Below the pieces are notes generated by a model. It was not told the DNA's origin and ran no database searches. It was given only the letters and a program-made list of their open reading frames with translations. The translations under genes were made by a program, and so were the position numbers. A stretch of 42,172 bases of DNA from Deltaproteobacteria bacterium (GTDB lineage: Bacteria; UBA10199; SPLOWO2-01-44-7), in contig JAHFSU010000016.1 of NCBI GenBank assembly GCA_023265595.1, forward strand, positions 1-42,172, given 5' to 3'. Numbering within the stretch: the first letter of the stretch is position 1; the number at the start of each line of letters is the position of its first letter. Positions 29,006-33,633 of the stretch are shown one piece after another.

Positions 29006-30193
29006 TTATTTATAGGCCGCGATACCGGTGATTTCCTCCCCCAAAATCAGCGTGTGGATGTCGTGGGTTCCTTCATAAGTATAGACGCTTTCGATATTCA
29101 TCATGTGGCGGATGACCGGATAGTCATCCAAAATGCCGTTGGCCCCCAAAATTTCGCGGGCCACATGGGAAACCTTTCGTGCAATGGCGCAGTTATTCAT
29201 CTTTCCCATTGAAATTTGTGGCGGCGTTATTTTTTTTGCATCTTTGAGGCGCCCCAGTTGCAGTGCCAAGAGCTGGCCTTTTGTGATTTCAGTCAACATC
29301 TCAGCCAATTTTTTTTGTGTCAGTTGAAAACCGCCGATCGGTTTATCAAATTGGATACGCGTTTTGGAATATTCGACCGCGGCTTCGTAACAGGCCATCG
29401 CTAGTCCGAGCGATCCCCATGCAATGCCGTAACGGGCCTGTGAAAGACATCCTAAAGGGGCTTTTAACCCCTCCGCTTTTGGAAGCCTATTTTCTTCGGG
29501 GACTTCGACCTCCTCCAAAACCAATTCGGATGTGACTGATGCACGCAGACTGAATTTTCCTTTCATTTCGGGGGCGCTAAAACCTTTCATCCCTTTTTCA
29601 ACGAGAAATCCGTTGATTTTTCCCGCTTCATTTTTGGCCCAGACGACAGCGACATCGGCAATGGTCCCATTAGTGATCCACATTTTGGTTCCGTTTAAAA
29701 TCCATCCTGAGTTTGTCGAATGACTATTTTTCTTTTTGGCGCGGCTCAACATGCCGGCCGGATTGGAGCCGAAATCGGGCTCGGTCAGCCCGAAACAGCC
29801 GATTTTTTTCCCGGAGGCCAAAAGCGGCAACCACTTTTTTTTCTGTTCTTCAGAACCGTAGGCATAAATCGGATACATCACCAGCCCACCCTGCACCGAT
29901 GCGGCGGAGCGCATGGAGGAATCGCCTCGTTCCAGTTCTTGCATCAAAAGTCCGTAAGCCACGTTGTTTAACCCCGCACAACCGTACTCTTGGGGAAGCG
30001 TTGCCCCTAAAAACCCAAGCGCCCCCATTTTGGGAAAGAGTTCCTTCGGAAAAGTAGATTCACGCGTGTGTTTGGTGATGATCGGCAAAATTTCTTTTTC
30101 GGTAAAATCTCTAGCCATCCGCTGGACTTCGATCTCCTCTTCCGATAAGAGCTCGGAGATGTTTAAAAAGTCGGTACAGTTGAGTTGTGGCAT
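29006..30193 (-). CDS. Acyl-CoA dehydrogenase, probable glutaryl-CoA dehydrogenase
   Basis: A 395-residue FAD enzyme of the acyl-CoA dehydrogenase superfamily. The blocks LPQEYGCAGLNNVAYGLLMQELERGDSSMRS, VMYPIYAYGSEEQKKKWLP, IGCFGLTEPDFGSNPAGM and TKMWITNGTIADVAVVWAK match glutaryl-CoA dehydrogenases closely. So do ARYGIAWGSLGLAMACYEAAVEYSK, QLTQKKLAEMLTEI and VYTYEGTHDIHTLILG. The Glu in TYEGTHD is the catalytic base. It would convert glutaryl-CoA to crotonyl-CoA, the last specific step in lysine breakdown, which fits the transaminase and aldehyde dehydrogenase 3 kb away. Its start is 15 bases from the divergent VanZ-Wzi gene, so the two promoters overlap. Confidence 0.9.
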   Translation of the reverse strand: MPQLNCTDFLNISELLSEEEIEVQRMARDFTEKEILPIITKHTRESTFPKELFPKMGALGFLGATLPQEYGCAGLNNVAYGLLMQELERGDSSMRSAASVQGGLVMYPIYAYGSEEQKKKWLPLLASGKKIGCFGLTEPDFGSNPAGMLSRAKKKNSHSTNSGWILNGTKMWITNGTIADVAVVWAKNEAGKINGFLVEKGMKGFSAPEMKGKFSLRASVTSELVLEEVEVPEENRLPKAEGLKAPLGCLSQARYGIAWGSLGLAMACYEAAVEYSKTRIQFDKPIGGFQLTQKKLAEMLTEITKGQLLALQLGRLKDAKKITPPQISMGKMNNCAIARKVSHVAREILGANGILDDYPVIRHMMNIESVYTYEGTHDIHTLILGEEITGIAAYK

Positions 30194-30208
30194 GATGGTT
30201 TTAGTAAT

Positions 30209-32371
30209 ATGAAAAAAGCATTTTGGCTAGCCCTTTCCTATACGTTATTGATATTTGCTTCTCTTTATTTTGTCCCCTTTTTTACCGATTTTTTATTACA
30301 CCATAATTTATTGGAAAATTTTGTCGACACAACCCATCTGGCCTTTGGCATTCTTCTCGTGATGCTTTTTTTTCGAAAGTACAAAATTAAAAATTTAAGG
30401 GCCTATTTTCTCTTTTTTTTGGTCCTTATTGTTTTTCTTGGACTTTTTTTAAACGCCCGGTTTTTGCAGGAGCGGTTTCACTACATGGAATATACTCTCT
30501 TTTTTGTTCTCTGGTTTCGCGTGATCCGTTATCTTTGGCCGAACGGTTTTTGTTATCTTGCCACCTTTTTCTTGACATCCGCCATCGGCGTTCTCGATGA
30601 AACGGCACAAAAATTTTTGCCCAACCGATATTTTGATTGGAACGACATCGGCATCAATCTGCTAGGGGGCTTGATCGGTGTTGCGGTTGTCCTGATTTTG
30701 ATGCGTTATCGTCAGGATAAGAAAAATTCGAATAGTGTTGGGTTTGCAACGGCATTACTTTTTTTCTCTCTTCTTTGCGGCGCCCCCTCTTTGCAAGCGG
30801 CCCCTCTCAATGTCGATATGGTTGAGGAACAAGATGTGGCGGTCTACGACGGCATCAATCAGTTGGTCGCTTTGGGATTGATCGATACCATCAATTTGGG
30901 ACAGCGCCCATGGTCCCGCAATGAAATTGTCCGGATGGTGAAAGAGGCCGTCTCGAATTTGGGACGGCTTCGAAATGTCCCACAAGAAATTCAGGCAAAA
31001 CAGACGCTCAAATTTTTGAGCCGGCGCTACAAATTGGAGATGGAGGGTGTGTCTGAAATCGCCTTTTATCCTTTAAGAGAGATCCTATTTGAATATCTCT
31101 ATCTCGACAGCCCCAATCGAACGGTCCCCGTTACCGTCGGGACGACCGATGCCATTCAAGCCTTTATCAATCCATTGACCTCGTACAAAAAGGGGCGTGC
31201 CTATGAGGACACAAACAATGTTGGGATTCAGACGACCCATGAACTCGATGTGACAAAATATTTTTCTGTTTGGGCCGCCCCCAATTTTTTGTTTCGACAG
31301 AATAAAGGGCAAGAAGATTATGTTCAGGTCGGTTTTGATGAGCTTTACGGCCGCACCGAATTTGCAAATGTCGGAATCCAGACGGGGCGCGATGTATTGG
31401 GATGGGGACAGGGGCCTTACGGAGGCGTTTTTAATTCGACCAATGCAACACCCCTCGACATGCTCAAAATTTCAAACGTGAGCCCCTTTTATTATCCGGC
31501 ATTTTTAAAATATTTGGGCCCTTCTTCGATCGGCTTTTTTATAGGACTCATGGAGGCCAACCGTGTTTTTTCGAGAGATTATATTACCGGCATGAAACTG
31601 ACTTTCCAGCCGCTCAAAGTTTTTGAATTTGGACTCACAACGGAACTGATTTCCGGCGGCAGAGGGGCTCCTAAGGCCTCGGTCGGAAAAAGAATTGCCG
31701 ATTTTTTTGGAATTTTTACAGAGGCCTTTGGACAAGATCCCAATATTTCGGATCGCGTCGGCGGGTTTGATTTTCGAATCCGGATCCCACCGTGGCGCGG
31801 ACTGGAAATTTATTATGAAGTCCTGTTTGAAGATCTTCTCCCTCCCCCGCATTGGGCCACGATGTTTGTTGATGAAGCGATCCATCAAGCCGGCCTTTTT
31901 TTGCCGAGACTCAATGATATCGGCACCCAAAATTTGAGATTGGAATTTATCTACGCCGGATTCAGGGCGTATCGGCATCATCAGTTCCGTTCCGGGTGGA
32001 CTAGAAATTCGAGAATCATGGGGAGTGAAATGGGGCCCGAATCGATGGGGGCTGCGCTGATCTTTGAGGATCGGCCAACATATTATTTTGTGCAGACGCA
32101 CCAGTTTGCCGTTGAAAACCGGGGGAGTAATTTTTATCGTTTTTTGGGTGATGCGACATCCGTGGAAGTGACCCGACATAATCCTTCTGAAACCCGCTAT
32201 CGTTGGGTTAGCGCTTTTACGCTGGAGAGCAAACCGCAAGTCGATTGGACGCTGGCTTTTGGTTACGAACGGGTCCAACAATTTAATTTTGTGGTCGGCG
32301 ACAATCGCAATAACTTCCTTGTCAATTTGCGGATGAATGTTTATCCTAGGGGCAAGGTGGCAAAGAAATAA
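30209..32371 (+). CDS. VanZ-like membrane domain fused to a Wzi-type outer-membrane protein
   Basis: A 720-residue chimera. Residues 1-170 form a VanZ-like domain of four or five transmembrane helices (AFWLALSYTLLIFASLY, LAFGILLVMLFFRKY, YFLFFLVLIVFLGLFL), with the family motif FDWNDIGINLLGGLIG near 148-163. Residues 175-197 look like a second, internal signal peptide (VGFATALLFFSLLCGAPSLQA). The rest resembles capsule-assembly Wzi and related beta-barrels (IQTTHELDVTKYFSVWAAP, GWGQGPYGGVFNSTNATPLD, FTLESKPQVDWTLAFGYE). It ends in the Phe/Tyr-alternating strand NNFLVNLRMNVYPRG. Cleavage at the inner signal could release the barrel to the outer membrane. I chose ATG 30209 (MKKAFWLAL); an upstream TTG is a poor start. 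Confidence 0.75.
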   Translation: MKKAFWLALSYTLLIFASLYFVPFFTDFLLHHNLLENFVDTTHLAFGILLVMLFFRKYKIKNLRAYFLFFLVLIVFLGLFLNARFLQERFHYMEYTLFFVLWFRVIRYLWPNGFCYLATFFLTSAIGVLDETAQKFLPNRYFDWNDIGINLLGGLIGVAVVLILMRYRQDKKNSNSVGFATALLFFSLLCGAPSLQAAPLNVDMVEEQDVAVYDGINQLVALGLIDTINLGQRPWSRNEIVRMVKEAVSNLGRLRNVPQEIQAKQTLKFLSRRYKLEMEGVSEIAFYPLREILFEYLYLDSPNRTVPVTVGTTDAIQAFINPLTSYKKGRAYEDTNNVGIQTTHELDVTKYFSVWAAPNFLFRQNKGQEDYVQVGFDELYGRTEFANVGIQTGRDVLGWGQGPYGGVFNSTNATPLDMLKISNVSPFYYPAFLKYLGPSSIGFFIGLMEANRVFSRDYITGMKLTFQPLKVFEFGLTTELISGGRGAPKASVGKRIADFFGIFTEAFGQDPNISDRVGGFDFRIRIPPWRGLEIYYEVLFEDLLPPPHWATMFVDEAIHQAGLFLPRLNDIGTQNLRLEFIYAGFRAYRHHQFRSGWTRNSRIMGSEMGPESMGAALIFEDRPTYYFVQTHQFAVENRGSNFYRFLGDATSVEVTRHNPSETRYRWVSAFTLESKPQVDWTLAFGYERVQQFNFVVGDNRNNFLVNLRMNVYPRGKVAKK

Positions 32372-32534: not shown

Positions 32535-32619
32535 TGGTGCCCAGGGCGGGACTCGAACCCGCAAGGGTTTCCCCACAGGATCCTTAGTCCTGCGCGTGTA
32601 CCACTTTCGCCACCTGGGC
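32535..32619 (-). tRNA. tRNA-Leu, anticodon AAG, CCA encoded
   Basis: An 85-base class II tRNA. The acceptor stem is gcccagg/cctgggc, A73 is the discriminator and CCA is encoded at 32535-32537. The anticodon stem is cagga/tcctg with the loop ctaagga, so the anticodon is AAG. The variable arm is short and hairpin-like (gggg aaa ccc) and the T stem is gcggg/cccgc with the loop ttcgagt. A73 and the long variable arm fit leucine. The same place after secG is held by tRNA-Leu(GAG) in Escherichia coli. A34 in a leucine tRNA is rare in bacteria and would need deamination to inosine. The 5' third of the gene is also coding sequence for the upstream LAGLIDADG protein. Confidence 0.93.
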
Positions 32620-33297
32620 AATAGAACTATCCGAATGCCGAATCGGATTTTGGTCCGTAGAAAAAATTTTTTTCACTTTCACATATTTTCTTTCTAACCG
32701 CGGAGCATTATCAGAATAGTATATTTTTCGAAGCAAAGTACGCGAAGCTGTTTTTGCAAATTCCAAATCATAGCAGTTTTTACTGAATCTTATATTTCCA
32801 CAAACACCACTTAGGTTAAAAATGGTTTTTTGAAGCCATTGAAGGAAATGAATGCTGCCGGAGTAAAATTTTAGATAAAACATGTAACTGCTTTTCCAGC
32901 GTGGATCCCAATAGGCGTTGATAGATCCGTCACCGTCAAAACAGCCCCTTAAAAAATCGAAGAAAAACTTCTTGGGAATCTTCAGTGTTCCTATTGTTTT
33001 AGACTTGTTTGGAGTTAATCCCAGTTCCAACAGCCAACGATAAAAAATAACATCGCCAAATTGAACCCGATTACAAGAAGTCTTCTTATTTCCAAATCCT
33101 CCGTAATTTTTTCCGATGCTATTTTCAATTCCCAAACATTTCTTAAAAGTTTTTAGCAAATCAATGTCTTTTGATGTTAAACTGATGTGCCTTCCATCCG
33201 GCGAGAGATTTCCATCTGTTGCTAAAAGACCTAAAGCATAAGCGAATTCTGGTCTCCAAGTTTTATTGATTTTCTCTTTGGGTTTGATGCCGACCAT
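32584..33297 (-). CDS. LAGLIDADG homing endonuclease-like protein ending inside tRNA-Leu
   Basis: A 237-residue protein with two LAGLIDADG-type motifs, ALGLLATDG (residues 21-29) and FLRGCFDGDG (115-124), each keeping the acidic residue needed for cleavage. This is the layout of a single-chain (pseudo-dimeric) endonuclease. The core between the motifs (FKKCLGIENSIGKN, DVIFYRWLLELGLTPNKSK) fits such enzymes found beside tRNAs. It starts three bases after the secG stop, so it is probably translated from the glycolytic operon. The last 12 residues (IAQVAKVVHAQD) are encoded by the tRNA's own acceptor stem, D arm and anticodon stem, and the TAA stop is in the anticodon loop. The target site is probably the tRNA-Leu gene itself; that is inference. 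Confidence 0.82.
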   Translation of the reverse strand: MVGIKPKEKINKTWRPEFAYALGLLATDGNLSPDGRHISLTSKDIDLLKTFKKCLGIENSIGKNYGGFGNKKTSCNRVQFGDVIFYRWLLELGLTPNKSKTIGTLKIPKKFFFDFLRGCFDGDGSINAYWDPRWKSSYMFYLKFYSGSIHFLQWLQKTIFNLSGVCGNIRFSKNCYDLEFAKTASRTLLRKIYYSDNAPRLERKYVKVKKIFSTDQNPIRHSDSSIAQVAKVVHAQD

Positions 33298-33300
33298 ATA

Positions 33301-33633
33301 TTATTTTTTCTGCTCTTTTGGTGGTGTTGTGGATTCGGCCGGAACGTCTTTCGGCATGGGCGTTGTCTCCACCGGCATATTACCAATCACCGATTCGGTT
33401 CCTTTATTGTGACCGATTTTTACAAGCCAGACGGAAGTCAGCAAAAACAGAACCGAAACAATGATCGTCAGCTTGTTTAAAAATGTAGCCGGACCTCTGC
33501 CGCCAAACAAGGTCTGTGACATGCCGCCACCGAAGGTGGCTCCGATGTCAGCACCCTTTCCGGTCTGCAACATGATCACACCGATCAAAAAGAGACAGAC
33601 AAAAACGTGTAATCCGATAGCAATCGTATCCAT
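33301..33633 (-). CDS. secG: Preprotein translocase subunit SecG
   Basis: A small (110-residue) inner-membrane protein of the SecYEG translocon. It has the expected two transmembrane helices (IAIGLHVFVCLFLIGVIML and LNKLTIIVSVLFLLTSVWLV) joined by the conserved segment QTGKGADIGATFGGGMSQTLFGGRG. A Pro/Thr/Lys-rich tail of about 35 residues extends beyond the core, which is common in this family. The gene follows tpiA with a 9-base gap and normally precedes tRNA-Leu; here a LAGLIDADG gene sits in between. Confidence 0.93.
   Translation of the reverse strand: MDTIAIGLHVFVCLFLIGVIMLQTGKGADIGATFGGGMSQTLFGGRGPATFLNKLTIIVSVLFLLTSVWLVKIGHNKGTESVIGNMPVETTPMPKDVPAESTTPPKEQKK

Follow-up and report, generated by a model that had tools for sequence, protein, structure and literature searches.

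Within the window, by which we mean the whole analysed stretch of 42,172 nucleotides, secG, a LAGLIDADG homing-endonuclease-like open reading frame (ORF) and a tRNA-Leu(AAG) gene follow one another on the reverse strand (Table 1). The ORF opens with an ATG lying 3 nt past the stop codon of secG, which was itself identified by TIGR00810 and PF03840, and closes with a TAA (32586..32584) inside the tRNA gene, called by ARAGORN and in agreement with Rfam RF00005 (53.6 bits). The 3' end of the ORF, GCC CAG GTG GCG AAA GTG GTA CAC GCG CAG GAC TAA, is at the same time tRNA nt 1-36 and spans the 5' strand of the acceptor stem, the D arm, the 5' strand of the anticodon stem and part of the anticodon, with the TAA corresponding to U33-A34-A35 in standard numbering. 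An earlier sequence-only reading of this DNA had described the same arrangement, namely an ORF that enters the tRNA, a stop codon in the anticodon loop and a start just behind secG, and the ORF list, ARAGORN and Rfam all confirm it. No group I or group II intron was matched by Rfam at the locus, both the tRNA and secG are intact, and the ORF stands alone; a group I intron splitting the tRNA gene was thus ruled out, as the tRNA is complete and no Rfam intron family matched. The ORF is therefore a free-standing gene, outside any intron or intein. It starts where the preceding gene ends, as do four homologues (L018, L050, L074, L079), and its expression is therefore probably coupled to that of secG. 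Elsewhere in the window, a single forward-strand ORF (30185-32371) combines a VanZ-like membrane domain with a Wzi-type capsule assembly barrel (PF04892 + PF14052), a fusion that may be unusual.

Table 1 Features of the secG-tRNA-Leu(AAG) locus in the window.
Feature	Position	Strand	Evidence
LAGLIDADG homing-endonuclease-like ORF, 237 aa	32584..33297	-	ORF list; Pfam LAGLIDADG_3 (2e-7); AlphaFold2; Foldseek
tRNA-Leu(AAG), presumed target gene	32535..32619	-	ARAGORN; Rfam RF00005
Overlap: last 11 ORF codons + TAA = tRNA nt 1-36	32584..32619	-	ORF and tRNA coordinates
First LAGLIDADG motif, residues 19-29 (AYALGLLATDG)	33211..33243	-	Alignments A1 (11 rows) and A2 (30 rows)
Second LAGLIDADG motif, residues 114-124 (DFLRGCFDGDG)	32926..32958	-	Alignments A1 and A2
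Altered D-loop of tRNA-Leu(AAG)	32597..32607	-	Comparison with five gene-free relatives; motif test
secG, 5' neighbour in both empty and occupied sites	33301..33633	-	Pfam/NCBIfam

The LAGLIDADG assignment, likewise proposed from the sequence alone, was upheld by PF14528 (LAGLIDADG_3, 2e-7) and by the nearest solved structure, which is I-Tsp061I (2dch) both for the sequence profile of the family (1.9e-15) and for the fold of the window model in Foldseek (E 5e-11). In alignments A1 and A2 the residues Y20, G23, D28 and G29 are invariant in the first motif, as are F115, R117, G118, D121, G122, D123 and G124 in the second. An AlphaFold2 model built with 30 relatives reached a mean pLDDT of 89.9, whilst residues 225-237, the tRNA-encoded tail among them, scored below 50 and are predicted to be disordered. 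By its two motifs with their invariant acidic residues (D28 and D121/D123), its model and the Foldseek match, the protein belongs to the double-motif LAGLIDADG homing endonuclease family, folded as a saddle from one chain, and is a predicted nuclease. Its phage relatives are remote, at ~25-32% identity among the best matches listed.

The association with tRNA genes extends well beyond this locus. The source genome carries a second copy (L002, contig C8, 1441-2261), 51% identical, directly behind a complete tRNA-Leu(CAA) into which its open frame extends back; the same order, with the gene after the tRNA, was seen in genome G004 (L004) and in two distant Patescibacterial loci (L291, L292). A search of 60 related genomes gave 12 matches; 11 have a tRNA close by, which almost all of them directly abut, the tRNAs being Leu (AAG, CAG, CAA, UAA), Cys and Asp. 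A single-sequence search of genome contigs gave no homologues, and an alignment search of public genomes returned 80 loci at 45-57% identity, two of which run off their contig. In all of the 78 evaluable close homologues a same-strand tRNA-Leu follows directly downstream (70 GAG, 7 CAG and 1 UAG), the hosts being mainly Patescibacteria plus Chloroflexi and Omnitrophica. The nearest tRNA is on the gene's strand in 108/108 collected loci that have a tRNA nearby; the ranking of the public homologues followed their likeness to members already known to adjoin tRNAs, and the result accordingly concerns this clade and not LAGLIDADG genes at large. Five loci (L011, L103, L104, L110, L290) adjoin no tRNA. 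As a control, 80 viral LAGLIDADG relatives (~30% identity) had a tRNA within 1.5 kb in only one case, on the opposite strand. A prophage or phage origin was rejected, since the phage relatives are distant and those on viral contigs are without tRNA neighbours.

Related clades adjoin tRNA-Cys, -Asp or -Ser, the Ser members being more distant. Four such ORFs (L102, L107, L108, L109) stop at or within the first part of a tRNA-Ser, which indicates that the habit of flanking tRNAs reaches beyond the clade of the window. Some copies have tRNAs on both sides: L006 and L007 are sandwiched between tRNA-Cys and tRNA-Leu(UAA), and L062, L069 and L081 between tRNA-Leu(CAG) and tRNA-Leu(GAG). When the adjoining tRNA was mapped onto the protein tree, its label changed 14 times, against 25.6 after shuffling, and none of 200 shuffles gave a value as low. 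Because labels cluster in this way and a single Leu(CAG) clade covers the window family, Patescibacteria and Chloroflexi, the tree indicates that the gene has been transferred into the sites of distant hosts. One record (L083) is labelled Burkholderiales and carries a gene from deep within a Patescibacterial clade, in an rplS-tRNA-Leu(GAG) context; it is probably mislabelled or a mixed bin. Another locus (L277) has a homologue of the first half only, 5' of tRNA-Leu(GAG), a decaying copy.

The sequence-only reading had also held that the gene invaded an existing gap between secG and tRNA-Leu, and the uninterrupted junction was indeed found: secG followed by tRNA-Leu(AAG) at a distance of 3-229 nt, without the gene, is present in 5/5 other family genomes (G001-G005). 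For a wider view of empty sites, 118 genomes of one Patescibacterial order were screened with an anticodon-based pattern, yielding 83 readable tRNA-Leu(GAG) loci, of which 11 hold the gene (one truncated) and 72 do not. There the 5' neighbour in 63 of the 72 empty loci is rplS (ribosomal protein L19, PF01245), and the order rplS-gene-tRNA recurs in 61/80 occupied loci from the wider set. Insertion beside the tRNA leaves both neighbours intact. That the sites share the gene downstream, while those upstream (secG and rplS) are unrelated, suggests the tRNA as the target.

How far the reading frame enters the tRNA is variable. Among 96 full-length homologues upstream of a same-strand tRNA, 41 stop within it, which is more overlap than chance would give. 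All three frames are used for these stops (23:9:9), with the frame of tRNA nt 1 favoured at a p of 0.008 that is uncorrected for kinship, and in 14 of the 41 the stop falls precisely at tRNA nt 36, a position largely given by the tRNA itself, because U33 followed by GA(G) or AA(G) reads TGA or TAA. The members without a stop in the tRNA mostly end 0-34 nt short of it; among the close homologues the ORF ends before the tRNA in 47/78, and the overlap varies even between close relatives within one clade (L059-L085). At the other extreme, the ORF of L030 crosses an entire tRNA-Leu(CAG) and stops ~30 nt past it. In over half of the relatives the ORF ends ahead of the tRNA, and the tRNA-encoded tail is predicted to be disordered; it therefore appears incidental, most simply a by-product of a gene lying flush with the tRNA. 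That the tail matters for enzyme function seems very unlikely.

Comparison with relatives, the only means by which this alteration and the upstream piece described below can be detected, revealed that the tRNA beside the gene is itself altered. The D arm is identical in the five gene-free family members (GGCGGAATTGGTATACGCG) and differs in the window (GGCGAAAGTGGTACACGCG) by three changes, all in the loop, whose segment reads GAATTGGTATA in the former and AAAGTGGTACA in the latter. The changes fall at linear tRNA nt 13, 16 and 22 (32607, 32604 and 32598), each differing from all five relatives, and together they break a D-loop motif, YTGGYAKAC, that is canonical in 5/5 of them. In the Patescibacterial data, on which this motif was defined post hoc and where the count reversed an earlier by-eye impression of no difference, it was found in 24/77 tRNAs with the gene and in 62/72 without it (p 8e-12); thus 24 of the 77 occupied Leu(GAG) loci keep the canonical motif and 10 of the 72 gene-free tRNAs lack it. 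Since the gene-free set comes mostly from one order and kinship was handled by matching only, we note that the difference also holds within a single Patescibacterial order (3/10 with the gene against 62/72 without, p 4e-4) and between pairs matched on the 3' half of the tRNA (only the empty member canonical in 29 pairs, the reverse in 4, p 1e-5). The non-target Leu(CAG), by comparison, is canonical in 8/11 gene-bearing genomes, mostly picked for a non-canonical Leu(GAG), and in 5/7 gene-free genomes. The alteration is not a product of selection on the tail, because it is as common at loci whose ORF stays outside the tRNA (canonical motif in 16/50) as at those whose stop lies inside (8/27). Recoding is not universal, since the D arm of Leu(CAG) is the same with the gene (G005) as without it (G000). 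At tRNA-Asp, the three occupied members of the family likewise have odd D arms, a plain observation without statistics. On these grounds we regard it as fairly probable that the D-loop change gives resistance to the putative enzyme.

A further tRNA-derived element stands in front of the gene. When the 200 nt upstream were searched with a tRNA-Leu(GAG) consensus from empty loci at a score of at least 24, a partial tRNA-Leu copy was found in 52/77 occupied loci, against 0/77 in each of the reverse-complement, shuffled and ORF-internal controls and 2/71 in gene-free loci. When the tRNA of each locus was itself aligned locally to the upstream sequence, the piece emerged in only 21/100 loci, because the functional tRNA has diverged from it. 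The piece usually extends over tRNA nt 14-39, from the D-loop to the anticodon loop, and the spacing between its ACGC and TTGAG blocks is 7 nt in 37/38 measurable pieces compared with 6 nt in 45/45 measurable real tRNAs. Many loci have a TATAAT-like box starting 12 nt before the start codon (35 occurrences), which implies a nearly leaderless transcript, and a TAGACG-like (-35-like) hexamer lies 16-19 nt upstream of the -10 box in 24/52 pieces (shuffled mean 0.2). Similar pieces occur at the Leu(CAG)-type loci L090, where the piece has a CAG anticodon, and L288, and in the tRNA-Cys clade L008 has an apparent canonical tRNA-Cys nt 1-22 before the gene and an altered working tRNA-Cys. The piece was not found in the window, where the score was at background, nor in L003, the Leu(CAG) member of the window family, and in L002 and L004, where the gene comes after the tRNA, no tRNA 3' piece was found beyond the gene. 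Loci with a piece did not have significantly fewer overlapping stops (15/52 vs 12/25, p 0.13), and a paired score of the remnant against its own tRNA was not significant either, in part because the ungapped score fails on gapped pieces. From its sequence and placement, the piece is likely to be a promoter in Patescibacteria; that it also serves the enzyme as an operator is possible, and is suggested by analogy.

Taken together, we consider it probable that the window gene is a free-standing LAGLIDADG homing endonuclease that targets its neighbouring tRNA-Leu and is tolerated through a resistant D-loop, and within this proposal the tRNA gene as the target is very likely. What the DNA shows directly is that the genes adjoin tRNA genes with a strand bias, that empty sites exist, that D-loops are altered and that a tRNA piece lies upstream; from these observations we infer cutting, the exact site, immunity and autoregulation. 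The enzyme gene would move into an uninterrupted junction between a gene and tRNA-Leu and come to end flush with the 5' end of the tRNA, for which reason the reading frame would often first stop inside it. Transfer RNA genes are among the most conserved cellular DNA and are well-known landing sites for integrases. A target in the tRNA gene would explain where the ORF lies, why empty sites exist and how target-specific clades spread across phyla, and a target that includes the D-loop would explain the altered D-loop of the adjacent tRNA; the recognition region probably runs from the D-loop to the anticodon arm. The occupied allele would escape self-cutting by D-loop changes at positions that the tRNA tolerates, and the altered 5' half of the tRNA is probably carried along when the gene homes. 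In most Patescibacterial relatives the upstream piece (nt ~14-39, with one extra nt between the D-arm and anticodon blocks) would carry the promoter of the gene and may be an uncleavable operator that limits the enzyme's own expression, whereas in the window, where the piece is absent, the gene would be coupled to secG instead. The broadest form of the proposal, in which selfish endonucleases have spread through many phyla by cutting the D-arm-anticodon region of tRNAs, have forced a D-loop change in Leu (and in Cys, Asp and perhaps Ser) and regulate themselves by an uncleavable tRNA piece, is one we put forward tentatively, as something short of probable.

Other explanations can be given for each part of this pattern. 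The flank of a tRNA might be only a safe place to insert, with selection for harmless, transcribed sites producing the neighbourhood and the enzyme recognising the upstream gene, a promoter or a remote site; both neighbours do stay intact after insertion, and free-standing phage endonucleases can cut away from their own gene (PMC2988022). This is nevertheless improbable, given that the upstream neighbours vary (secG, rplS and others) while the tRNA isotype is constant within a clade, that the D-loop is altered in the adjacent tRNA and not in the sister isoacceptor, and that a copy of the D-loop-anticodon region of the tRNA stands before the gene. The sequence-only reading had proposed that the tail was captured from the tRNA, locking gene and tRNA together through the C-terminus, and that translation could be coupled to tRNA processing; in a strong form of this view the tail is part of the working protein. 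The preference for the frame of tRNA nt 1 fits such a tail, as does the fact that the three D-loop changes in the window all alter its amino acids (E>K, L>V, Y>H). However, conservation of the tail, the check that reading itself had named, fails in relatives, where stops inside the tRNA occur in all three frames; most close homologues end before the tRNA, the overlap differs within L059-L085, the tail is predicted to be disordered, and the D-loop change is no rarer where the ORF stays outside. The lock is thus unsupported, no sign of a link between translation and tRNA processing emerged, and of the alternatives weighed here a captured, functional tail is the most improbable.

The altered D-loops could also reflect lineage drift, with faster evolving tRNAs in tolerant genomes, or could be passengers of co-conversion and not a sign of immunity. 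Homing converts flanking DNA, and a foreign D arm could ride along unselected, a process that may be at work and that overlaps with the endonuclease model; the non-canonical motif in a minority of gene-free tRNAs would also be expected from drift. As the sister isoacceptor is unaltered in the same genomes and the difference persists after matching by the tRNA 3' half, we think this explanation unlikely. Rather less unlikely, though still disfavoured, is that the upstream piece is the decayed, functionless 5' half of an original tRNA broken by insertion. Two loci (L040, L041) keep tRNA nt 1-37 upstream of the gene at the position of the piece, and a gene-free tRNA-Leu(GAG), L216, has a perfect copy of nt 1-21 lying 81 nt upstream (L234 is similar), a scar that an endonuclease gene may have left when it was lost. 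Against decay stand the same nt 14-39 core and one-nt spacing change across phyla, often with a promoter at a fixed place, since pure decay would not preserve the core, the spacing or the promoter's place. We also disfavoured a related scheme in which insertion at the anticodon loop breaks the tRNA and a 5' half brought in by the gene repairs it; this would account for pieces ending at nt 37-39, but not for the extra nt that they share.

If the endonuclease model is true, it would supply a cause for unusual tRNA-Leu D-loops in uncultured bacteria, a natural experiment on how far a tRNA can change and still function, and enzymes with a possible specificity for cutting tRNA genes. The tRNA-flush position would also account for the tRNA-encoded residues at the end of many predicted LAGLIDADG proteins. 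In the literature searched, which was thin on subscription journals and preprints, we found neither a family of chromosomal homing endonucleases in bacteria that is dedicated to tRNA genes nor a description of the altered tRNAs or tRNA-derived control piece of such a family; free-standing homing endonucleases, the tRNA-associated SegB and LAGLIDADG genes in CPR rRNA are already known. Group I introns have reportedly been described in Patescibacterial tRNA genes in a 2025 preprint cited in PMC12641178. Those introns resemble the window family in being mobile elements that target tRNA genes of the same hosts, whereas the tRNA in the window is complete and without a group I intron by Rfam.

Among characterized systems, the archaeal I-Tsp061I (2dch) shares the double-motif monomer fold of the window protein; it is, however, intron-encoded according to its PDB title, whereas the window gene is intron-less, only ~19% identical and placed beside a complete tRNA. 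Within CPR bacteria, LAGLIDADG genes lie within rRNA insertions (PMC11270868), and are similar to the window family in host radiation and in their link to conserved RNA genes, but differ in being inside rRNA insertions, and the word "tRNA" is absent from the main text of that paper. Closer in lifestyle are the free-standing endonucleases of phage T4, SegA-G and MobE, which carry out intronless homing, with SegB located in the T4 tRNA cluster (PMC2988022). Like the window gene, these have no intron and sit next to their probable target, and SegB is also tied to tRNA genes; SegB, in contrast, is a GIY-YIG enzyme with an intergenic tRNA target in one phage group, whilst the window family is LAGLIDADG, chromosomal, distributed across phyla and probably directed at the tRNA gene itself. 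For the upstream piece the nearest parallel is the autorepression of I-TevI, in which a copy of the homing site without the correct cleavage spacing overlaps the endonuclease promoter and is bound uncut (PMC2988022). In its anatomy that operator matches the tRNA piece that precedes the gene in relatives, although I-TevI is GIY-YIG and intron-encoded, and binding and repression, demonstrated for I-TevI, are in these relatives suggested by the likeness.
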